A stretch of DNA of 64,000 nt from Psychroflexus planctonicus (GTDB lineage Bacteria > Bacteroidota > Bacteroidia > Flavobacteriales > Flavobacteriaceae): NCBI RefSeq assembly GCF_014640195.1, contig NZ_BMGM01000003.1, positions 1 through 64,000 of the forward strand, read 5' to 3'. The notes under the pieces were generated by a model that was not told the origin of the DNA, ran no database searches, and worked only from the letters and a program-made list of their open reading frames with translations. Positions 19,737 through 31,135 of this stretch are shown in pieces (the first letter of the stretch is position 1; each line of letters starts with the position of its first letter). The translations under genes were made by a program, and so were the position numbers.

Positions 19737-22700
19737 CTAAGCCCGAAATTTTTTATAATTCTCTGCTTGATCAAAAATTTCTTGATACACTTCGTCTCTT
19801 TCAACTGGAGGGTAACCGTGTTCGTCTAACAGTAATATTAAACCTACCTTTAAAGCTGATTTGATATCATCACGTTTGCTCCAGTCTGGAAATTTTGCTT
19901 GGCTATCTACCAAGTCTTTTACTGCTTTTGCTAGGTTTATGAGTTTATCTTCTGGATAAGAAAAGTCATATTTTTTACATAAGTCAAATAGAATATCGTA
20001 AAAGGCTTTTTCTTCAAATCCAATTCCTAAATCATTTCCGGAATTCATTTCTTCATACACTTGCCAAATCATATCCGTCAGCTGGTCTGCCATCTCTTCG
20101 TAAACTTCGCCAATGAGTTTATCGTTTGCACTACGATCATTGTATTTGCTAACCAAAGACTCCATTTTCTTTGAAAAATCAACTCCTTTTACTTTATTCA
20201 CTTGCTTAATTTGGTCAATTGCTCTAGCTAATAGCTTTTGTAAAATCTTAATCTTTGTGTTGGGCAATTTGATTTTATTGATTTTAGCCAAATAATCTTC
20301 ATCAAATAAATCTTGTTCGTTTACTCCATCTTCGCCCATTTTGAAAATTTCTTCTACTCCTTGACTTTGTAGAGCTTGAGCAATCATTTCTCTTACTTTA
20401 GCATTCATTTGAGCGGTGTCAGGTGCATTACCCTTTGTAAGTTTGGCAATGATAGAGCGAACCGCTAAATAAAAGTGCGTTTCATCTCTTTGGACTTGGG
20501 TAAGCTTTTCACTTCCCGTACAAATATCGTAAGCGGCTTTTAATCGCTTGACTAAGCCCATGAATCTTGTTTCCATTTCTTTGCTTTGTTGCACATGCTC
20601 AACGGTAAGATTTAAGGTGTTGAGTTGGGCAAGCTCATTTCCAGAAAAATAGTTTGTACTATCAAACTTGTGAAACAACTTCGCTAGTAAATCCAAATGA
20701 TTTTTGACAATTACCAAGGAATGCTCGATATCTTCAAAGTTTTTGGCATCGTTATTTGAAAACATAGCTAAGGCTAAATTCATCTGATTCTTAATGCCGA
20801 TATAATCAACAACCAAACCTTTGTCTTTTCCTTTAAATTTTCGGTTAACTCTAGAAATCGTTTGTATTAAGCTGTGTTTCTGAATAGGCTTATCTATATA
20901 AATGGTATCTAAAAATGGAACATCAAAACCTGTGAGCCACATATCGACAACAATCGCAATTTTAAAATTTGATTTTTCGTTTTTAAATTGTCGATCTAAT
21001 TCTTTTTTATAGTCTTTGCTACCTAGTAGTTCATACATTTCTTTAGGATCATCCTGATTTCTGGTCATGATTAATTTAACCCTTTCCATAGGTTTAATTT
21101 CCTTTTTATCTTTCTCAGTTAATTCTGCACCTTTCTCAGCAGACAAAACTTCACCCCATTCAGGTCTAAGTTCAAGTAAATTCAGATAAAATTGATAAGC
21201 AATTTCTCTAGAGCTACAAACAAACATGGCTTTGCCTTTTACGGTAGATCCTTCATTTACTCTGTTTTCATAATGCTTTACAAAGTCTTCTGCCAAGGCT
21301 TTTAAGCGATCTGGGTCGCCTAAAATGGTATTTAAATTGGCAGACTGCTTTTTGCTTTTCTCAATTTGATATTCGTTAGCGCCATCTTCTTCTGCTACTT
21401 TGTAGTAATCTTCAATTTTTTGGAGTTCGCTATTTTCTAAAGCCACTTTTGCTGCTCGTCCTTCGTAAACAATGCGAACGGTAATTTCATCTTTTACCGA
21501 TTCAGTCATGGTATAGGCATCTACAACCTTACCAAATACATCTAAGGTAGCATCAATTGGTGTTCCTGTAAAGCCAACAAAAGTTGCATTAGGCAATGAA
21601 TCATGCAGGTACTTTGCAAAACCATAGGTCTTTTTAACGCCTTTATCGGTAATTCTAATTTTTTGGTCTAGGTTAGTTTGACTTCTATGTGCTTCATCTG
21701 AAATACAGATTACATTATTCCGATGTGTTAAGAGCTCAATGTCTTCCGTAAATTTATGGATGGTAGTTAAAAAGACACCGCCACTAGCTCGGTTTTGTAG
21801 TAATTCCCTTAATTCAGAACGGCTTTCTACGCTTTGAATGTTATCATCACCAATAAAGGTTTTAGCATTGGTAAATTGACTTGAAAGTTGCTCGTCTAAA
21901 TCTGTACGATCGGTAATTAGAACTAATGTTGGATTTTCAAAGAAATCACTCTTCATGAGTAATTTCGATAAATACAGCATAGTAAAACTTTTTCCACTAC
22001 CCGTTGCTCCGAAATAAGTTCCACCTTTGCCATCGCCTTTGGGTTTTTGGGCTGTTTTTATGCTTTCAAATAAAGCTCGAACGGCATAATATTGTGGATA
22101 GCGACAAACTATTTTTTCATCTTTTTTAGACGAATCGGGCACATAAACAAAGTTCTGAGCAATATCTACCAGTCTTTTGGGATCTAACATGCCTTGTATA
22201 AGTGAATGTAAGCTATTGATGCCATCCACATCTTTAGATTGCAAACTCACTCTTCGCCAAGCATAGAAAAACTCATAAGGTGCAAAAAATGATCCTGCTT
22301 TGTTATTTACGCCGTCGCTGATGATGCAAAATGAATTGTATTTAAATAATTGCGGAATATCCCTTTTATACCGATTGGTTAATTGTTTGTAGGCGTTATG
22401 AATAGTAGTATTTTCTTCTATGGCTGTTTTAAATTCAAACACCACTAAAGGGAAACCATTGATGTAAATGATGCCATCGGGAATGCGTTTGTGATTTCCT
22501 GCAATTTCTAGTTGAGTAACAAATTTGAAGTTATTATTTTCAATATTTTCAAAATCGACTAAGTAGATCCAGATGTCTTTTTGATTTCTATCTTCTCTTT
22601 TTAAACTAAAGCCATCGGAAAGTAAACGGGTAAAGGCTGTATTGCTTTCGTAAATATCAGAATTAGGCAAACTCTTTATTTGCCTAATAATTTGTTGAAT

Positions 22701-22877
22701 CTCTTGGGTGGTAATGCCTTGCGATTGGTATTGATGGTTAAGAAATTTGTGAATGTCAGCTTCAATTAAAACTTCATCTTCACTACGTAAAATGCTTGCA
22801 CCCAATATATGCGGATAGCCTTGCTGTTTAAGTAGGTCTGCAATAGCTTGTTCTAATTTTGCTTCGGTGAATTTCAT
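19737..22877 (-). CDS. hsdR: Type I restriction endonuclease, R subunit
   Basis: ATP-dependent translocating nuclease subunit of a type I restriction system. The N-terminal PD-(D/E)XK nuclease site is D134 with E148-F-K150. The helicase core follows with Walker A GATGSGKS at 290-297, DEAH at 394-397, FTGTPID after that, and a second RecA lobe containing QTISRVNRKFKGK. The C-terminal part is predicted helical and would bind the methylase core. Length of 1046 residues is normal. It is the last gene of the minus-strand operon, 21 bases behind the PD-(D/E)XK gene. Confidence 0.95.
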   Translation of the reverse strand: MKFTEAKLEQAIADLLKQQGYPHILGASILRSEDEVLIEADIHKFLNHQYQSQGITTQEIQQIIRQIKSLPNSDIYESNTAFTRLLSDGFSLKREDRNQKDIWIYLVDFENIENNNFKFVTQLEIAGNHKRIPDGIIYINGFPLVVFEFKTAIEENTTIHNAYKQLTNRYKRDIPQLFKYNSFCIISDGVNNKAGSFFAPYEFFYAWRRVSLQSKDVDGINSLHSLIQGMLDPKRLVDIAQNFVYVPDSSKKDEKIVCRYPQYYAVRALFESIKTAQKPKGDGKGGTYFGATGSGKSFTMLYLSKLLMKSDFFENPTLVLITDRTDLDEQLSSQFTNAKTFIGDDNIQSVESRSELRELLQNRASGGVFLTTIHKFTEDIELLTHRNNVICISDEAHRSQTNLDQKIRITDKGVKKTYGFAKYLHDSLPNATFVGFTGTPIDATLDVFGKVVDAYTMTESVKDEITVRIVYEGRAAKVALENSELQKIEDYYKVAEEDGANEYQIEKSKKQSANLNTILGDPDRLKALAEDFVKHYENRVNEGSTVKGKAMFVCSSREIAYQFYLNLLELRPEWGEVLSAEKGAELTEKDKKEIKPMERVKLIMTRNQDDPKEMYELLGSKDYKKELDRQFKNEKSNFKIAIVVDMWLTGFDVPFLDTIYIDKPIQKHSLIQTISRVNRKFKGKDKGLVVDYIGIKNQMNLALAMFSNNDAKNFEDIEHSLVIVKNHLDLLAKLFHKFDSTNYFSGNELAQLNTLNLTVEHVQQSKEMETRFMGLVKRLKAAYDICTGSEKLTQVQRDETHFYLAVRSIIAKLTKGNAPDTAQMNAKVREMIAQALQSQGVEEIFKMGEDGVNEQDLFDEDYLAKINKIKLPNTKIKILQKLLARAIDQIKQVNKVKGVDFSKKMESLVSKYNDRSANDKLIGEVYEEMADQLTDMIWQVYEEMNSGNDLGIGFEEKAFYDILFDLCKKYDFSYPEDKLINLAKAVKDLVDSQAKFPDWSKRDDIKSALKVGLILLLDEHGYPPVERDEVYQEIFDQAENYKKFRA

Positions 22878-22898
22878 AATATTAAGCTTTGCTAGGCA

Positions 22899-24014
22899 TT
22901 ATAAAGAATAAAGCTTTTCGTTAATACGTTTAAATGCCTCGTAAATCTTCAATTTATCGATATGTTCAACGATGACTTCGCTTAAGTTTGAAATATCATC
23001 AGCATCTAATATTAAGCTGTGCTCATATAAATTATACCATTTATCAGAAGTATTTTTTAATCCATGATCAAGCTGAAAACCATCTGGTAATTCCATAATT
23101 ATCTCATCAAAATGTTCCTTTACTTTTTTTAATATAGAGCCACTAGCTTCAATGTAAAGTTTTATCTCCTGGTCATTAGTGAACAAACGGCTAAAAGCAA
23201 CTTTTATGCTTAATTTTGAAAATCTATTAGAATTATATCTTCTATAATGGTTTTCTTTCTCAGAGTTTTTTCTTGTTTGTTCCAACTTGAGGTCGTCAAA
23301 GGCCAAAACAACTTTCTCTACTTCATCCTTGATGTTTTTTCTGTATTTATTATCAAGCTTAACAATATCACTGATTTCTTTTTGATTCTTTAAGTAAAAC
23401 GCTAAATCTTGTTCATTCATTTTCTTTTCGCTTAAATTGATGATGTTTTGGTAAAAGTCTTTTAAAAAGGTGATGTATTTCTCAGATGCATCGAGCACAT
23501 ATTCGCCTAAGTTTAGAAAAACCTTATTAAGCAGCTCTTTATGTGTCAAGCTAACAAAATTTTCTTCTTCAGGATAGAACTCTTTTAAGCCTAAGACTAG
23601 TCCATAAACTGCATCTTTGTTGGCAATTTTATTTTCAACATAACCTGAATACTCTCGCAGACCATTATTCAGGTGATGATAAATTTTATTTTCAATGATA
23701 ATAGCAGAGTCATCATTTATTAGGAGAATGTCTATTCTGCCTTTTTGGGTTGAGTATTCTGTATGAATTTCGAAATCTGTAAAGTCTTCAATCCAGTCGT
23801 TACCACGTTTTTTATTTAGGCAATTCACTAAGCTATTGATGAATAAATCGCCTAAGCCATGTTCTTCTGTTGGATCTAAATAAAACGCATAAATGTTACT
23901 AATTACATTTTCGTAATGCGGTTGCCTTGCAATTTCTAAAAAGGTTTTAGGCTTTGTTTTAAACTCTGGAATTTGAGCTGTGTCTAAAAAGTCTTGCAAT
24001 TCATCTAATTTCAT
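22899..24014 (-). CDS. PD-(D/E)XK nuclease family protein
   Basis: A 371-residue protein with an N-terminal nuclease core: an early Glu/Asn segment (YENVISNIYAFYLDPTEEHG), then D95 in GRIDILLI and E108-N-K110 in IIIENKI. This matches the PD-(D/E)XK nuclease families found in defence loci. The C-terminal half is charged and has no motif I recognise. It lies 13 bases behind DUF262-HNH and 21 bases ahead of hsdR. A role in DNA or nucleotide cleavage during phage defence is inferred from fold and position. Confidence 0.78.
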   Translation of the reverse strand: MKLDELQDFLDTAQIPEFKTKPKTFLEIARQPHYENVISNIYAFYLDPTEEHGLGDLFINSLVNCLNKKRGNDWIEDFTDFEIHTEYSTQKGRIDILLINDDSAIIIENKIYHHLNNGLREYSGYVENKIANKDAVYGLVLGLKEFYPEEENFVSLTHKELLNKVFLNLGEYVLDASEKYITFLKDFYQNIINLSEKKMNEQDLAFYLKNQKEISDIVKLDNKYRKNIKDEVEKVVLAFDDLKLEQTRKNSEKENHYRRYNSNRFSKLSIKVAFSRLFTNDQEIKLYIEASGSILKKVKEHFDEIIMELPDGFQLDHGLKNTSDKWYNLYEHSLILDADDISNLSEVIVEHIDKLKIYEAFKRINEKLYSL

Positions 24015-24027
24015 AAAACCAAGGATA

Positions 24028-25818
24028 TTATAATTTTTGATAATAAGATTTGATTCTCTTTGCCATGAGTTTTCGCCTCTCAGCTAGGAAGTTTTCGTAA
24101 TCTTCAAATGTTGAATGCGACAGACTTCTTGGTATGTCATTCTGTTTGAAATTTTTATCTAGCTCTTCTAATGAGGTTATACTTGTAAGATTGACTTTAT
24201 TTTCTCCAATTTCTTCCTTAACCCTTTCCATATATTTTTCAGGCGGTTGTTTTCCAACTTTTATATTGATAGACTGCTCAGTGAAAACAAAATTTGCAAC
24301 TTGATTATATTGTTTAGGTTTGAAATTATTTGAGCTTAAATATTTTTTGGGGAATATGTGATGCACATCACCTCGTTGTTCCAGCAAATTCTTAATTGTA
24401 TGAGATTTAGACAAGAATGCATTCGAGTTACTGTTACATTGTGCAGCTAAATAAACATTATAAGCATTGTTGTTGGTGCTTGAAGTTTCTAAATCATTCA
24501 CTAAACCAAACTCCCAAAAACCTTCACCTAAATGAGTTTCCTCCATTTGCTCTAGATACTTTCTAACTCCTTTCTCCTGAACTTGCTTTATATCCTCATC
24601 AATCATAGATTCTGATGATCCAGAATAGCGACCTATTAGCAAGGACATGATCAGCCATTTTTTTACATAACCCTGGGCTTCCGTTTCCTGTAAACCATCT
24701 TTTCTTAATTTTAGATATAAGGCATAGGAAAAATTGAGACTATTCTTTGATGAAATTAATTTATTACTGATTAGGCCAGTAGACTTTACAACCATCAAAA
24801 AGCGTTGATAATTAGTTTTGTTTGAAAAATCCAAAACACCTTCTGCTAATAACTTGTAACTGCGTTCGACGATTTCATCTTCATAAGTTCGAGTTTCAAA
24901 ATTTCTTCCTGAAAGCAAAGCAACTAAGTCACTAAACTTACCACGATTGAACTTGTAGGTAAATGCTACTCGCAGAAAATCTATATAATCTGGAACGTAA
25001 AGATCATCAGAAGCATTTGCCATCCAGCTTATATGTTTATAATAATCGTGAGAAACAAATACCTTATCGTTATCCAAGATGTGCTTATTGAAATCTTTAT
25101 CAACAATTAAGCGACAAAAATAGTCCACCAATTTACGCATCTTGTTTCCTCCATGTAGTTCATCTGAAGCTATCTTAGACATCACAAAATCTGCATTGCT
25201 GAGCTTTGCACCTTTCTGATTGATTCTGATAAAAATCTCGGTTACTACATCAATGTTTAATGAATGGTCTAGCTCAATGATACCGACTTGTTTGTTTTTA
25301 ATTTTTTTAAGCTCCTCAATTTTTCTTTCAATCTTGATTTCCTCCACATCTGGATTTAGTTCCATATATGATCGCCTAGCTTCACTTATGGTAATTTCAT
25401 CATTGATGATCGGATTTATGTTATTGATCCACTTTGAGTTATTTTGAATAGCTTTATTTAAAACATCAAATTTCTCTTCCAAAGGATTAAAAGCTATACG
25501 TATATTTTTCTCCTTGTAGTTTTTATCCAACACACGTTGACCTACTATGGCAGCTGTTAATGCTGTTATACGTTGCTGGCCATCGATTAAGATTTTTTTG
25601 CCTGTTGAAACTTCACCGTTTTTGAGTTTTACATTTGGGTTTTGCCAGGTGATGATATAGCCTACTGGGTAGCCATGATATAAAGAATCTATTAAATCCC
25701 TTACTTTTGATGCTTTCCAAACAAAAGGCCTTTGTATTTCTGGTATGGCTATCTCACCAGATTTTATCCAGCTTAATAAAGTTTCTACAGGTTGTTGGTG
25801 TACGGAGTATTTTGGCAT
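24028..25818 (-). CDS. DUF262 protein with C-terminal HNH-like domain (GmrSD-like)
   Basis: A 596-residue protein with the DUF262 (ParB-like NTPase fold) signatures IPEIQRPFVW at 25-34 and DGQQRIT at 79-85, and a C-terminal HNH-type block with H486-H487 in HHIFPKKYL followed by conserved Asn residues. This architecture is shared with GmrSD-type modification-dependent nucleases, in which DUF262 hydrolyses nucleotide and the HNH part cuts modified DNA. The DUF1524 form of the nuclease domain is not certain. It is embedded between the OLD-like gene (42 bases) and the PD-(D/E)XK gene in the hsd operon. Confidence 0.83.
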   Translation of the reverse strand: MPKYSVHQQPVETLLSWIKSGEIAIPEIQRPFVWKASKVRDLIDSLYHGYPVGYIITWQNPNVKLKNGEVSTGKKILIDGQQRITALTAAIVGQRVLDKNYKEKNIRIAFNPLEEKFDVLNKAIQNNSKWINNINPIINDEITISEARRSYMELNPDVEEIKIERKIEELKKIKNKQVGIIELDHSLNIDVVTEIFIRINQKGAKLSNADFVMSKIASDELHGGNKMRKLVDYFCRLIVDKDFNKHILDNDKVFVSHDYYKHISWMANASDDLYVPDYIDFLRVAFTYKFNRGKFSDLVALLSGRNFETRTYEDEIVERSYKLLAEGVLDFSNKTNYQRFLMVVKSTGLISNKLISSKNSLNFSYALYLKLRKDGLQETEAQGYVKKWLIMSLLIGRYSGSSESMIDEDIKQVQEKGVRKYLEQMEETHLGEGFWEFGLVNDLETSSTNNNAYNVYLAAQCNSNSNAFLSKSHTIKNLLEQRGDVHHIFPKKYLSSNNFKPKQYNQVANFVFTEQSINIKVGKQPPEKYMERVKEEIGENKVNLTSITSLEELDKNFKQNDIPRSLSHSTFEDYENFLAERRKLMAKRIKSYYQKL

Positions 25819-25860
25819 ACGTAATTTATTTTCTTTCTACTTTTTATTAATTTCAAATAA

Positions 25861-27768
25861 TTACACTTTTAATTTATCAAAAGCTTCTTTTATTTTTGAG
25901 GGTATTTTATCAACGTGATTAATGTGATTTAGAAGCAATTCTGAAGAGTCTATTCCTTTTGATGGCAGCCTAACCAAGGTATCATATTCTAAACCAAGAT
26001 TTTGGCATTTTTCTCGAATTTTTCTTTTCAAAATAGAATAAAACTTTTGATTATTATTACATTTTACATTTGGAATTTCAGTTTTCCACTCTTCAACTTC
26101 TTTATAAGAAAATTCAAAATCACCATGGTAAAAATCGTTGAGAATATTTGACCAGACTTCATTCTCAATTGAATCTTCTATATCTTGAATACCAACAAAA
26201 AACATGTTGTCTTTTATTGCTTCAGCTCCAATTTCAAATTTCATGTCATTATCAAAAAGATATACTAATTGTTCTTCTGTTTTTTTAAAACCAGCCATAA
26301 CCTTATCTAAAAGAGTTTTATTTATGAGCCATTTATCTTTCCCCTGAACATTTATTAGTTGGATATTATCTTTAATTATGGTCCTTCCAGTATACAATTC
26401 GTATAATTTTGGAATCAAGTACTGTTCGGTATCACCTTCTACTATCAAAAATTTATCATGAAATAGAAAGTCGCTATTCTTTACATTAAGTGAAGAATAA
26501 ATTGCCTCAACGTCTGAGCAACCGTTTAATACAGAATAACCATCTTCTTCTTGTATAACACTATTAATTTTATCAAGATTAGATTTATCAATAAATATTG
26601 TGGAATGGGTACTGATTAAAGTCTGCACATTTCCTGTTGAAACTTTATTAAGAATATCAAAAAACTCCCTTTGAGCTCTCGGGTATAAATGGGTTTCTGG
26701 TTCATCAAATGCCCAAATAAATTTGTTGATACTATCCTCACCTGTATTTGCTTTTGCTTTGATTAATGAAAACCAAATCTGTCTCTTTAGCCCTTCACCT
26801 TGATTTTCTAAATGGATAGGACCGTCACTATTTGTTTTAGTAAGCATAACATCAGAAATCTTTTCTTTTACATTAAAGTAAACCTTGGAATTAATTCCTT
26901 CAACATCCTTTGCCACTTCCCTTATTGTCTCACTTAGTTCTCCAAATTTTCTATTAATTGCTTTTTCCGCTAACTTGGCTTTATCTTCAGCTAATATTTT
27001 AATTGGTTTTAAATGATCATCAATTTCATCTTTCATAATAGCTTCTGCCGTGGCAATAATTTCGTCTAAACTTGTGTTCCAATCAAACAAACTGTAGTCA
27101 GGGAATATATCCTTATCATTTTTGGCAAATTTGTATTCTGCCCAACGCGGTCCTGAATCTATTTTAGAATAAATTGCTCTTATTTTTTCAAAATTTGAAA
27201 ACCTACCTTTTCCATTTTCATTTTCAATGTCATCAGCAGTTATCTTTAATTCTTTTATTTTTTTATCAATAGATCTTACAGCAAGATTCCACAATTCTAA
27301 AGAATCATTTGATTCATTCATCAAAACATAAGTCTTATCTAAAGAACCATTCAATTTTCTCACAAGCCAAAATATTCCTTCCTCATTTGAATCTAAAGAC
27401 CATTTTAAAGGCGTTGATAAATTCATGTCAACATATTCAGATCCTTCTTCTTCTTCTTGATATTTAAACTTACCAACAATAAAAGTTGAAGTAGCATCAT
27501 CTGGAAATTCTGGCAAATCTTTCTCAACGAGCAAATGATTTAATTTATCAGTTTCATCAGGTGTATTGGATAAATCATTCTTATAGCTGCCTTCTCCTAA
27601 AGAATTGTATTTAGATTTAGAATTAAGCAGTAAGTCTAATGCTTGTAAAATAGTTGATTTACCACTATCATTTAAACCAATGTAAATATTAGGATTACCT
27701 TCAGATAACTTTAGGCTAACTGTTTTACAACTTCGATAATTGAAAATTATTACTTCATCTAAATACAT
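25861..27768 (-). CDS. OLD-family ATPase with TOPRIM nuclease domain
   Basis: A 635-residue ABC-type ATPase fused to a TOPRIM domain. Walker A is GLNDSGKST at 31-39, the ABC signature is ENQGEG at 321-326, Walker B is IWAFDEPE at 351-358 and the H-loop is STH at 386-388. The TOPRIM part has E444 in LIVEGDTEQ and D506-N-D508 in YLFDNDM, the metal-binding acidic residues of OLD nucleases. No UvrD-like helicase partner (as in Gabija) is adjacent. It is preceded by the KTSC gene with 2 bases between, suggesting coupled translation. Likely an abortive or DNA-degrading defence effector. Confidence 0.85.
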   Translation of the reverse strand: MYLDEVIIFNYRSCKTVSLKLSEGNPNIYIGLNDSGKSTILQALDLLLNSKSKYNSLGEGSYKNDLSNTPDETDKLNHLLVEKDLPEFPDDATSTFIVGKFKYQEEEEGSEYVDMNLSTPLKWSLDSNEEGIFWLVRKLNGSLDKTYVLMNESNDSLELWNLAVRSIDKKIKELKITADDIENENGKGRFSNFEKIRAIYSKIDSGPRWAEYKFAKNDKDIFPDYSLFDWNTSLDEIIATAEAIMKDEIDDHLKPIKILAEDKAKLAEKAINRKFGELSETIREVAKDVEGINSKVYFNVKEKISDVMLTKTNSDGPIHLENQGEGLKRQIWFSLIKAKANTGEDSINKFIWAFDEPETHLYPRAQREFFDILNKVSTGNVQTLISTHSTIFIDKSNLDKINSVIQEEDGYSVLNGCSDVEAIYSSLNVKNSDFLFHDKFLIVEGDTEQYLIPKLYELYTGRTIIKDNIQLINVQGKDKWLINKTLLDKVMAGFKKTEEQLVYLFDNDMKFEIGAEAIKDNMFFVGIQDIEDSIENEVWSNILNDFYHGDFEFSYKEVEEWKTEIPNVKCNNNQKFYSILKRKIREKCQNLGLEYDTLVRLPSKGIDSSELLLNHINHVDKIPSKIKEAFDKLKV

Positions 27769-27770
27769 TC

Positions 27771-27980
27771 TTACTGTTTTTTAAATTTGTAATTGTCTCT
27801 AATGTTTTTTGAAAAATAAATGCCATGTGAGGAAGCACTCCTAAGAGAATCATATTCATCTTTTGGCACATCAAAATATTGATAAACTGATCCGTCCTTA
27901 AATTCTGCTTCTAAAATTTCTGAATTGGAATCATAACCTACAGATACTATATTTGATGACCTTACTGGTTGTCTTTCCAT
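27771..27980 (-). CDS. KTSC-domain small protein
   Basis: A 69-residue protein consisting of one KTSC domain, a small fold named for its likeness to the C-terminal part of lysyl-tRNA synthetase. The pattern is S-NIVSVGYDSNSEILEAEF, then VYQYFDVP and a Gly-Ile-Tyr-Phe turn near the end. Such domains are thought to bind nucleic acid, but this is not proven here. It is translated 2 bases before the OLD-like gene, so it may be an accessory to it. It follows hsdS by 37 bases. Confidence 0.8.
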   Translation of the reverse strand: MERQPVRSSNIVSVGYDSNSEILEAEFKDGSVYQYFDVPKDEYDSLRSASSHGIYFSKNIRDNYKFKKQ

Positions 27981-28017
27981 AATTAATTTTTAAATTTTTT
28001 ATTTCCGTTTTATCTTC

Positions 28018-29229
28018 TTAAGCCTTACTCATCTTTGAAAGAATTATGTCTTTCATATCAGAAAATTTATTGTTTGTAAGTTTATTGGACATTATTTTAT
28101 TTAAAATATTCTCAAAATGAAAATTAAATTTTGCAAAATTATCTTTTGGATAACAAACATACGAGTTGTCAAGATGTTCTCTTTTAATATGACCCATTGA
28201 AGTTTTATTACCTTCTGCTATTCTTATAAATTCTTCGATGTAATATTGTGTACTCAAATAGTAATACCATTTTGGAAATTTTTTAGATGATAACTTAAAT
28301 AGATGTTGATTAAGCCCTGCTAAACCTCCTGTCCAAATATCTATTGTTAAAGTCCCAGACCAAGAAAAAATAATATCCCCATCATAAATCTTATACTTTT
28401 CAGGTATATTCATTGAAGCTCTATCACTTTTGTCGTCAGAGAACCCCAAATTTAACTCTCTAATTTTAAGCACAGGTACGTATTTAGAATTGTCTGTAGA
28501 TGGGTATTTTTGCATAGCTGTACCATTTAGATAAGTAGCTATTGCTGACAAACCTTGAACCTCCCACCCCTCAGGAATCTCCTTATCCAATTCTTCGTTA
28601 TACACTAGTTTACCACCAGAAGATTTATAGGGCATCTCGACTCCGCTCGATGTGACATAAGGATACTCAAAGTCCACAAACCAATGTTTATAAATCGCCT
28701 GGGCGGTTTCTTCGAGCTTTTGGTTGAGTTGTTCGTTGATGCGGATGCGGTTGTCCACGGCATTGTATTCGGCTACAATTTGGTGTTGTTTTTCTATGGG
28801 TGGGATGGGAAGTTCTGTTTCACACATCTCGTCCCAATCAAAGGTTTCTCTGGCAGAGCCGTGCGATTTATACCTCGCATAGCGATCAAACTCAGGTCGC
28901 CTAAACCACATCATTAAGTATTCAGGGTCTAATTCTTCCGTATTTATAATTTCAAAAACAGTATAGGCTTGTGATACGATTGCTTGTTTATATTCCTGAA
29001 GTAAAGCTACTGAGATTTTTTCTCCATTTCTGGAAGTTACAGGGCCATAAGCAAATTGTTTTTTATTGATGATTTTATAGCTCTTCATATTGGTGCCAAC
29101 TGTATTAGCTATAGATGGCATCAATACTTTTCTAATGCTTACCCCTAAAAGTCGTTCTACTTTTAAGTCAGTATTTCGCTCATTAACCTGTTGGATATAA
29201 GGACCTAGTTGTTTATAGTTATTTCTCAT
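28018..29229 (-). CDS. hsdS: Type I restriction specificity subunit
   Basis: Determines the target sequence for both modification and restriction. It has two target-recognition domains separated by the typical central conserved helix (PPIEKQHQIVAEYNAVDNRI, around residues 140-160) and a second conserved helix at the end. Length of 403 residues is normal. In the linker after that helix the DNA at 28633-28656 is a palindromic repeat-like sequence read in frame as VTSSGVEM. It overlaps the mini KilA-N gene by 4 bases and precedes KTSC by 37. Confidence 0.92.
   Translation of the reverse strand: MRNNYKQLGPYIQQVNERNTDLKVERLLGVSIRKVLMPSIANTVGTNMKSYKIINKKQFAYGPVTSRNGEKISVALLQEYKQAIVSQAYTVFEIINTEELDPEYLMMWFRRPEFDRYARYKSHGSARETFDWDEMCETELPIPPIEKQHQIVAEYNAVDNRIRINEQLNQKLEETAQAIYKHWFVDFEYPYVTSSGVEMPYKSSGGKLVYNEELDKEIPEGWEVQGLSAIATYLNGTAMQKYPSTDNSKYVPVLKIRELNLGFSDDKSDRASMNIPEKYKIYDGDIIFSWSGTLTIDIWTGGLAGLNQHLFKLSSKKFPKWYYYLSTQYYIEEFIRIAEGNKTSMGHIKREHLDNSYVCYPKDNFAKFNFHFENILNKIMSNKLTNNKFSDMKDIILSKMSKA
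28633..28656. repeat. REP-like palindromic element inside hsdS
   Basis: The 24-base stretch CATCTCGACT..TCGATGTGAC has an inner TCGA-CTCCGC-TCGA hairpin. It resembles a palindromic intergenic repeat I know from many Flavobacteriia genomes, here within coding DNA and keeping the frame (VTSSGVEM). The identification is from memory and only one copy was seen in this window. Confidence 0.5.
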
Positions 29230-29576
29230 CGCCCTAATTTTTTGATGCTTACATCATTTTCAAGTAACACTTGCATTTGATGTATAGCAATTTGGTTGAG
29301 TTTGATTAAGCGTTCGCTTTGTGCTAAACCGGCATTCATTTTAAAGTGGTCAAATTCGACCACTTTAAAATTGGGATTATATAATTGTTCCCAAGTACCA
29401 ATAAACTCAATAGTGGTTCTGTTTCTAATCCAGTTTTTTATGACATCGGCAGCTCTGGAATCATTTTCTTTTGTTTTTGCAATATCAGTTAGCGAAATGA
29501 AATCACTTTCTTGAGAGTGCAGTACTGAAATAGTGATACCCTTTACTTCAATGGTGTCGTTTTTCTTTTTAGTCAT
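29226..29576 (-). CDS. Shortened KilA-N domain protein in the hsd operon
   Basis: A 116-residue protein. Residues 1-75 give a KilA-N DNA-binding domain (ISLTDIAKTKENDSRAADVI, NWIRNRTTIEFIGTWE). From about residue 80 the sequence changes to LAQSERLIKLNQIAIHQM, which I know as the extreme C-terminus of the roughly 280-residue KilA-N proteins often found in hsd operons. The middle part is absent, so this looks like an in-frame internal deletion. It overlaps hsdM by 4 bases upstream and hsdS by 4 bases downstream. Function is unknown. Confidence 0.7.
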   Translation of the reverse strand: MTKKKNDTIEVKGITISVLHSQESDFISLTDIAKTKENDSRAADVIKNWIRNRTTIEFIGTWEQLYNPNFKVVEFDHFKMNAGLAQSERLIKLNQIAIHQMQVLLENDVSIKKLGR

Positions 29577-31135
29577 AACTCGTAGCCTAAATTTTTAAAC
29601 ACCATTTCTAATTCTTTTTTAGATTCCGCTTCTTGTTCGAGTAAATCAGCAATTTCAGTTTGCAATACCTTCATTTTATCATCAAAATCAATATTTTCAT
29701 CCCTATTGATAAACTCAATATACTTGGAGGGCACTAAGGAGTAGTCTTTTTTTTCTATTTCTGCTTTGCTTGCGGCGTAACAAAATTCGGGAACGTCTTT
29801 ATAGGTGTTATTTTGTTCCTGCCAATCATGAAAAGTAGAAACAATGTTTTCAATTTGTTCTCCAGAAAATTGAGTGAATTTCTTTTCAAATGGAATACCT
29901 ATTTGGCGTAAATCCATAAAAAGGGTTTCACTTTCTCTATTTCTAAATGCTTTCGTTTTATCTGGTAATTCTAGTTTACGCTCCTTTTTGTTTTTGTTTA
30001 AAATCCAAAGGGTTACACTAATATCCGTCGTATAAAACATATTCCGTGGCAAAATCACAATGGCTTCCACTAGGTCATTTTCGATGAGTTTTTTACGGAT
30101 TTTATATTCTTCGCCACCACCTGACAAAGCGCCGTTAGCCAAGATAAATCCAGCCACACCATCTTCAGAGAGTTTGGCTACAATATTCAAAATCCAAGCA
30201 TAATTGGCATTGCTTACAGGCGGTATATCATAGCCTTGCCAACGTGGGTCGTCATTGAGTTCGTCTTTGCCTCGCCAAGCCTTTTGGTTAAACGGCGGAT
30301 TGGCCATGATAAAGTCGGCTTTTAAATCTTTATGCTGGTCGTTGCCAAAAGTATCGGCGGCTTTATCGCCTAAATTGGCATTGATTCCTCGAATGGCGAG
30401 ATTCATTTTTGCCAGTTTATAGGTCGTATTGGTGTATTCTTGTCCGTAAATAGACACTTCTTTTTTATTGCCATGATGACTTTCTATAAACTTGATGGAT
30501 TGCACAAACATACCACCCGAACCGCAGGCAGGATCATAAATAATACCTCGATAAGGTTCTATCATTTCCGCAATCAGGTTTACGATGCTTTTGGGGGTGT
30601 AAAACTCTCCTTTCCCTTTGCCTTCTTTTAAGGCAAATTTGGATAGGAAGTATTCATAAACACGTCCAACAATATCTTGGTCGGCATCTTTAAGTGTATC
30701 AATATCATTGATGTTGTCGAGTAGTGCGGCTAGCTTAGATTTATCCAAACCTAAACGTGAAAAATAGTTGTCAGGCAAGGCACCACGTAAGGATGGATTG
30801 TTTTTTTCAATATCGTGTAGGGCAGTGTCAATTTTTATAGCAATATCGTCTTGCTTCGCATTTTTGATGATGTAGGACCAACGGGATTTTTCATTCAGGA
30901 AGAATACATTTTTCATGTTGTAGAATTCCTTCATTTCTACATATTTTTCTTGACCTTCATCAATCAACTCTTGTTTGCGTTTTTCAAATTTGTCGCTGGT
31001 GAATTTCAAAAAAATGAGCCCAAGGACAACGTGTTTATATTCAGATGGTTCAATAGAACCCCTTAATTTATCGCAGGACTGCCATAAACTTTCTTCAATA
31101 GATTTGGTTTTTTGTTGCTTTTTGGTTTTTGCCAT
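29573..31135 (-). CDS. hsdM: Type I restriction-modification methyltransferase subunit
   Basis: Adenine-N6 methyltransferase subunit that with HsdS methylates host DNA. The AdoMet site is D201-P-A-C-G-S-G-G and the catalytic NPPF motif is at 279-282. An N-terminal helical domain (residues 1-150) and a C-terminal helical tail complete the 520-residue protein. It is the first gene of the eight-gene minus-strand operon, so methylation is encoded ahead of restriction. A 648-base gap separates it from the divergent HU-like gene. Confidence 0.95.
   Translation of the reverse strand: MAKTKKQQKTKSIEESLWQSCDKLRGSIEPSEYKHVVLGLIFLKFTSDKFEKRKQELIDEGQEKYVEMKEFYNMKNVFFLNEKSRWSYIIKNAKQDDIAIKIDTALHDIEKNNPSLRGALPDNYFSRLGLDKSKLAALLDNINDIDTLKDADQDIVGRVYEYFLSKFALKEGKGKGEFYTPKSIVNLIAEMIEPYRGIIYDPACGSGGMFVQSIKFIESHHGNKKEVSIYGQEYTNTTYKLAKMNLAIRGINANLGDKAADTFGNDQHKDLKADFIMANPPFNQKAWRGKDELNDDPRWQGYDIPPVSNANYAWILNIVAKLSEDGVAGFILANGALSGGGEEYKIRKKLIENDLVEAIVILPRNMFYTTDISVTLWILNKNKKERKLELPDKTKAFRNRESETLFMDLRQIGIPFEKKFTQFSGEQIENIVSTFHDWQEQNNTYKDVPEFCYAASKAEIEKKDYSLVPSKYIEFINRDENIDFDDKMKVLQTEIADLLEQEAESKKELEMVFKNLGYEL

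Follow-up and report, generated by a model that had tools for sequence, protein, structure and literature searches.

A 64,000-nt stretch of the Psychroflexus planctonicus genome (NCBI RefSeq assembly GCF_014640195.1, 3.11 Mb in 34 contigs; contig NZ_BMGM01000003.1, positions 1 to 64,000), referred to here as the window, carries a type I restriction-modification (hsd) operon that encloses additional genes. Eight co-directional open reading frames (ORFs), all on the minus strand, occupy positions 19737-31135 and run along that strand in the order hsdM, KilA-N, hsdS, KTSC, OLD, DUF262, PD-(D/E)XK and hsdR, with gaps of -4, -4, 37, 2, 42, 13 and 21 nt. The interval between hsdS and hsdR (S-R interval; 22878..28017) is likely to be an exchangeable cargo bay, since none of the 25 other non-empty loci in the lineage has the same gene content. 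A first-pass annotation, made by a model from the sequence, had described a type I hsd operon with internal defence-family cargo and operon-like spacing. The ORF coordinates reproduced its eight genes with their strand, order, positions and gaps, and Pfam agreed with the family that it had named for each, as given below. Catalytic motifs were found in all five large enzymes checked (HsdM, HsdR, OLD, DUF262 and the PD-(D/E)XK protein).

The backbone is a type I restriction-modification system with all three subunits, carrying methylase and ATPase/nuclease motifs. HsdM (29573..31135; 520 aa) is the N6-adenine methyltransferase subunit, with Pfam HsdM_N and N6_Mtase domains and the motifs DPACGSG and NPPF. 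The specificity subunit HsdS (28018..29229; 403 aa) matches Methylase_S in two stretches and is the variable part of the backbone. HsdR (19737..22877; 1046 aa), the restriction/translocation subunit, has HSDR_N, SWI2_SNF2 and T1RH-like_C domains, matches NCBIfam hsdR TIGR00348 and contains the motifs D134...EFK, GSGKS and DEAH; its relatives in the PDB are HsdR proteins of the EcoR124I type. Relatives of this HsdR fall into two length classes of about 1046 and 1070 aa. In alignments with them the first ~115 residues were mostly 46-61% conserved and the remainder mostly 66-80%, the N-terminal 115 residues being the less conserved part in every full-length relative aligned there.

Four genes fill the S-R interval of the window. 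The KTSC-domain protein (27771..27980; 69 aa; Pfam KTSC, E 2.5e-23) gave a structural model (pLDDT 72.6) that matched chains of SIR2/HerA complexes in fold; among the closest solved structures are 7x8c and the C terminus of the HerA chain 8wiv (residues 628-695). The gene that follows (25861..27768; 635 aa) encodes an ABC-type ATPase (AAA_15) and a TOPRIM domain (OLD-like_TOPRIM), the composition of the OLD nuclease family, with the motifs GLNDSGKS, DEPE, EGDTE and DND and a match to OLD in the PDB (6p74, E 1.2e-7). The PADLOC models that it matched were Old, AriA and GajA, Old and AriA scoring better than GajA. Membership in Gabija was rejected, as no UvrD-type (GajB) gene was found among the eight genes; membership in PARIS (AriA-AriB) was likewise rejected, the TOPRIM domain and the ATPase lying in one chain and no AriB match occurring among the eight.

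The DUF262 protein (24028..25818; 596 aa; Pfam GmrSD_N; PADLOC HEC-05) has the GmrS (DUF262) domain of the GmrSD/BrxU enzymes with DGQQR at residue 79, and its residues 11-59 match a DUF262 protein in the PDB (7p9k, E 3.1e-7). The first-pass annotation had called this gene DUF262-HNH. The DUF262 half of that label stands, and the HNH half depends on the motif HHIFP at residue 486 and on a weak GmrSD_C match (E 0.0037, under the curated cut-off) in a 75% identical protein at another locus, L025; no Pfam match to an HNH or GmrSD_C domain was obtained for the window protein even at E<=1. The last cargo gene (22899..24014; 371 aa) encodes a PD-(D/E)XK protein that matches Pfam PDDEXK_4 and PADLOC PDC-S26, and for which a PDB search returned no match at E<=0.1.

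A search for HsdR in 299 Flavobacteriaceae genomes gave matches at E<=1e-200 in 25, counting that of the window; scanning the contigs of named genomes yielded eight loci, six of them new, for a total of 30 distinct other loci (designated L; genomes are designated G). Complete hsdM, hsdS and hsdR were present in 27, the other three ending at a contig edge. Removed before counting were L014, L043 and L044, where the contig ends before a full hsdS, the duplicates L029, L031 and L037, and L028 and L030, which have no HsdR of this family. The complete loci comprise 26 that come from searches or genera of Flavobacteriaceae, one of them (L049) distant, with 40% identity in HsdR, and one (L057) from a Thioglobus record; named loci include L051 (Psychroflexus montanilacus), L052 (Lutibacter litoralis) and L058 (Mangrovimonas aestuarii). 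The L057 record, titled Candidatus Thioglobus, which we take to fall outside Flavobacteriaceae, has an hsdM-hsdS-hsdR set that belongs to the lineage (HsdR 65%) and whose S-R junction is empty, reflecting either transfer or mis-binning.

The content of the S-R interval turned over among these loci, beside conserved hsdM and hsdR. At least one ORF of >=100 aa was present in 24 of the 27, two were empty (L039 and L057), and L036 held a 62-aa ORF only. When the 95 proteins were clustered, each of the 26 non-empty gene strings, window included, was distinct, and the window's cargo set was found in none of the 27 other complete hsd loci. The closest relative, L051, shares 94% identity in HsdM, 85% in HsdR and 37% in HsdS, and its cargo (Shedu, Abi_C and SLFN_AlbA_2) is unrelated. 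Alignment of the two loci at the DNA level was restricted to hsdM (90.7%), part of hsdS (73.0%) and hsdR (76.4%), and similarity in the hsdM and hsdR segments ends at the gene edges. The window locus has the features of embedded defence: defence-family genes inside an hsd operon, on the same strand and variable among related loci.

Members of the window's cargo recurred separately from one another. The DUF262 gene was present whole in five other S-R intervals (L025, L026, L027, L053 and L055), each time with other companions, which in some bays include other AAA_15/OLD-type ATPases. Across the 299 genomes it was matched in seven, two of the matches being N-terminal pieces. In L029/L050 (an hsd bay in G153) and in L030 (G159), the first ~100 residues of DUF262 are left (80-88% identical) and are followed by other genes; these remnants suggest that breakpoints may lie within the DUF262 gene. 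At L028 a DUF262 relative (51%) lies between hsdS and an EcoEI-type hsdR, and therefore the gene family also occurs in a different type I lineage. Close homologues of the window's OLD gene were found in four of the 299 genomes, its own included and one being split over two contigs; of these homologues (60-78%), that of G231 has another nuclease as its neighbour and that of G285 is not part of any recognised hsd locus. In a phylum-wide search at E<=1e-80 the OLD protein was matched in one of 395 genomes, the window's own.

Selected cargo proteins from the other loci were named by Pfam and PADLOC runs. The bays hold a CBASS effector, cyclase, E1-E2 and JAB (L048), SIR2 with HerA (L034), DRT4 with an AbiU-like protein (L047), a reverse transcriptase (RT) of group UG39 (L032), KwaB with a 172-aa neighbour that has no name (L035), AbiEii with DUF6088, that is, AbiE (L053), two ThsB-type TIR proteins with a SLOG protein, a Thoeris-like set (L055), and an AAA_13 protein assigned to PADLOC PDC-S06 (L040). 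Gabija-like genes were represented by GajA in L056 and GajB in L058, their partners being recognised from clustering or Pfam alone. A three-gene TIR module occurs in L038, L045 and L055, and the gene following it is different in each. About a dozen of the scanned cargo proteins gave no informative Pfam or PADLOC match. Among the small genes, the 82-aa gene of L026 matched WYL (E 6.4e-10), and the same assignment was not accepted for the 96-aa gene of L015 (E 0.084 only). The unnamed 72-aa genes of L061, L062 and L016 resembled KTSC on inspection, but were left unclassified because profile comparison with KTSC gave a probability of 0.2%.

The cargo is arranged with the hsd genes and in a non-random order. 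All 78 cargo ORFs of >=100 aa point in the hsd direction, compared with 148 of 219 flanking ORFs (Fisher 1.6e-11), and 96 of 111 junctions are <=50 nt, with a median gap of 5 nt. Of the 23 loci with at least two cargo genes, the window's among them, 16 have SLFN_AlbA_2, DUF262 or AbiEii next to hsdR, a count that within-locus shuffles average at 5.7 and reach in 0 of 20,000 trials; these classes were picked after the data were seen, the loci are related, and the gene counted for L048 is an 85-aa fragment. The window, in which PD-(D/E)XK is last, is an exception to the pattern. Restricting the test to ORFs of >=150 aa gave 14 of 22 (reached in 0 of 20,000 shuffles, or in 1 of 20,000 once multi-gene systems were collapsed). 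A class-free test found nine distinct families in last position against 17 in first, a difference reached by 74 of 20,000 shuffles. In the two filtered sets the polarity is weaker, because 899 and 1,054 of 20,000 shuffles reach the difference.

Signals within the window operon were sought by pattern scans. Promoter-like sites were at the level of shuffled sequence (54 versus 52.5 +/- 7.1), as were terminator-like sites (7 versus 6.8 +/- 2.1), and both of the terminator-like sites found on the minus strand are internal to genes (hsdM and hsdR). The Bacteroidota-type promoter pattern, in the form used here (TTG, 17-23 nt, TAnnTTTG), had a single minus-strand match, within hsdM. A single transcript for the operon is plausible.

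KTSC gave at least 34 matches in 100 family genomes, and six of the matches listed were in short ORFs (71-89 aa); five of these six adjoin OLD (window and G074) or HerA-type genes (G083, G012 and G003), and that of G019 adjoins neither. Many of the at least 34 matches lie in ORFs of ~150 aa, and in L070 and L071 KTSC forms the C terminus of ~150-aa proteins whose front part looks J-domain-like by eye. At L063, L067 and L068, in three Flavobacteriaceae genomes, short KTSC genes directly adjoin HerA-type ATPase genes. One published text mentions, as unpublished observations, HerA together with an endoDNase and a KTSC protein that binds DNA (PMC9503650). The window resembles these SIR2/HerA and HerA-KTSC-endonuclease sets, in which KTSC is fused to HerA (8wiv) or adjoins it, and differs from them in that its KTSC gene adjoins OLD instead of HerA. 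A KTSC-OLD pairing was not found in the literature searched on the KTSC domain or on HerA with KTSC, a small part of whose text was available. Of the 299 genomes, 7 encode a 343-aa PDDEXK_15 protein. Its gene is found close to KTSC at L014, L032 and L063; at L026 and L061 the nearby gene matches WYL or is related to one that does, and at L015 and L062 the small genes nearby have no firm classification. The large partner is OLD, OLD with RT, SIR2-HerA, a protein of AAA_13 type or a pair without names. In the window KTSC-OLD occurs and this PDDEXK_15 protein does not.

We consider it likely that the window holds a type I operon with an exchangeable bay: the S-R interval would take up self-contained anti-phage modules, probably co-transcribed with the hsd genes. 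HsdM, HsdS and HsdR would form the constant machine, which as a type I enzyme would cut unmodified foreign DNA, while the genes of the S-R interval, probably on the same transcript, would be swapped as units between related hsd loci through recombination in the conserved hsd genes. KTSC with the OLD ATPase/TOPRIM protein may constitute a nuclease unit that is triggered by DNA and has a small partner that binds DNA, and the DUF262 protein would be a GmrSD/BrxU-like type IV enzyme, expected to cleave DNA that evades type I restriction by way of its modified bases. The PD-(D/E)XK protein and OLD-KTSC would add further triggers. Each module most likely works alone.

Several points weigh against this interpretation. 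No promoter was recognised upstream of hsdM by either the promoter scan or the Bacteroidota-type pattern. Cargo identity comes from profile matches, and many of the cargo clusters are without a Pfam or PADLOC name. The mechanism of exchange was not seen in this sample, which contains no very close pair of genomes (nearest HsdR 85%), nor could an empty site be located on the chromosome: in two same-genus genomes the flanking aldehyde dehydrogenase (ALDH) is only 56% identical. Long S-R intervals are also common outside this lineage: of 44 type I loci from other lineages, 30 had an interval of >=1.5 kb, ten one of 0.4-1.5 kb and four one under 0.4 kb. This control comprised, in 149 family genomes and among the matches listed, 44 HsdR genes with hsdS upstream, drawn from 89 strong HSDR_N matches and from Methylase_S matches judged by eye on the same contigs; coordinates were transcribed by hand, and hsdS matches with one target recognition domain can inflate the distance by some hundred bases. 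The second such type I locus of the window genome (contig 11, other lineage) has an S-R interval of about 2.6 kb.

The same distances speak for a rival explanation, in which the S-R gap is a neutral landing site that tolerates insertions, with cargo expressed from its own promoters and drawing no benefit from hsd. Promoter-like matches do occur inside the cargo, at chance level, but the uniform orientation of all 78 cargo ORFs and their 5-nt median gap argue against such a site, as does the fact that cargo with recognised names is of defence type rather than mixed; we regard this explanation as unlikely. Less likely than not, and offered tentatively, is a bay that acts as a polar docking platform, in which position matters and content does not. 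R-proximal SLFN_AlbA_2, DUF262 or AbiE would persist and may control or guard hsdR, S-proximal modules would turn over faster, and small KTSC or WYL genes with a PD-(D/E)XK partner would be a mobile accessory unit on OLD, SIR2-HerA and other cores.

Two further explanations bind the cargo to the hsd genes more closely. The type I enzyme might keep the cargo silent until a phage protein that blocks restriction sets it off. PrrC with EcoPrrI is a guard-type arrangement of this sort. That precedent (PMC12707154) and the AAA_13 protein of PADLOC PDC-S06 at the related locus L040 speak for guarding. The window, however, lacks a gene of the AAA_13/PrrC type; the modules that share the bay are unrelated, so that one common trigger by inhibition of HsdR or HsdM is unlikely; and TgvAB works without HsdR restriction activity (PMC11411939). 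Guarding seems very unlikely here. The first-pass annotation had proposed that the genes may form one layered system, its extra nucleases acting once restriction is blocked; in an integrated system of this kind the five cargo genes and hsd would be mutually dependent. The tight operon-like gaps and the presence of three different nuclease families in a single operon are in keeping with that proposal, but it did not survive the comparison and is highly improbable: the set recurs in none of the 27 other loci, the closest hsd relative has unrelated cargo, and members occur apart in other contexts. The annotation had itself named, as evidence against a single system, an order confined to this genome or cargo scattered in relatives with hsdS directly next to hsdR. 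Within the genomes searched, the order was unique to this genome and the cargo largely scattered; directly adjacent hsdS and hsdR were seen in just 2 of 27 loci.

The remaining cargo gene lies between hsdM and hsdS (29226..29576) and encodes a truncated KilA-N protein of 116 aa with a partial Pfam KilA-N match (9-59 of 107) and a match to PADLOC PDC-S22. It aligns to residues 3-81 of a 280-aa KilA-N protein at L054 (L054_8; 59%) and, at its C-terminal end, to about residues 239-265; some 160 residues from the middle are therefore missing. The 280-aa gene occupies the same position between hsdM and hsdS, where 2 of the 27 other loci (L048 and L054) have a gene. The window gene has the look of a 280-aa gene that lost an internal segment in frame, and a decaying leftover is its best explanation.

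Embedding in the S-R interval is itself already in print. RloF, a DUF262 protein, lies between hsdS and hsdR in Campylobacter jejuni (PMC4619093; PMC11411939), and the R-linked ORFs of that species resemble the present cargo in being extra genes, DUF262 included, at this site; they differ in phylum and in cargo, the rlo genes being likened here by description. TgvAB of V. cholerae VPI-2 is a GmrSD-family type IV enzyme inside a type I cluster, which it is proposed to complement (PMC11411939), but it consists of two proteins and is the sole embedded unit, whereas the window has one DUF262 protein together with KTSC-OLD and PD-(D/E)XK genes. In the RRDM island (RptR - type I RM - DarTG2 - M48), a defence module likewise lies between hsdS and hsdR, at a site called a potential recombination hotspot (PMC12255303); its cargo is DarTG2, and an rptR-like small ORF was not identified in the window. 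PDC families have been put forward as embedded candidates (PMC12988326), and among such guilt-by-embedding PDC/HEC families the window has KilA-N (PDC-S22), PD-(D/E)XK (PDC-S26) and DUF262 (nearest to HEC-05 models). No dedicated paper on S-R embedding in Flavobacteriaceae, or with Gabija or CBASS, was found in a search whose scope excluded subscription papers and preprints. Relative to the literature searched, what is apparently new is the extent of embedding within one family, the non-random order and the pairing of KTSC with OLD.

For the window, these results mean that the cargo is to be judged as separate genes rather than as a single system. The bay also yields several unnamed recurrent proteins, such as the 343-aa PDDEXK_15 protein, which has no PADLOC match. 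If the S-R interval is a general bay for immune modules, the unnamed genes found there could be ranked as candidate new defence systems, and module order would supply a testable rule for how bacteria stack their defences.

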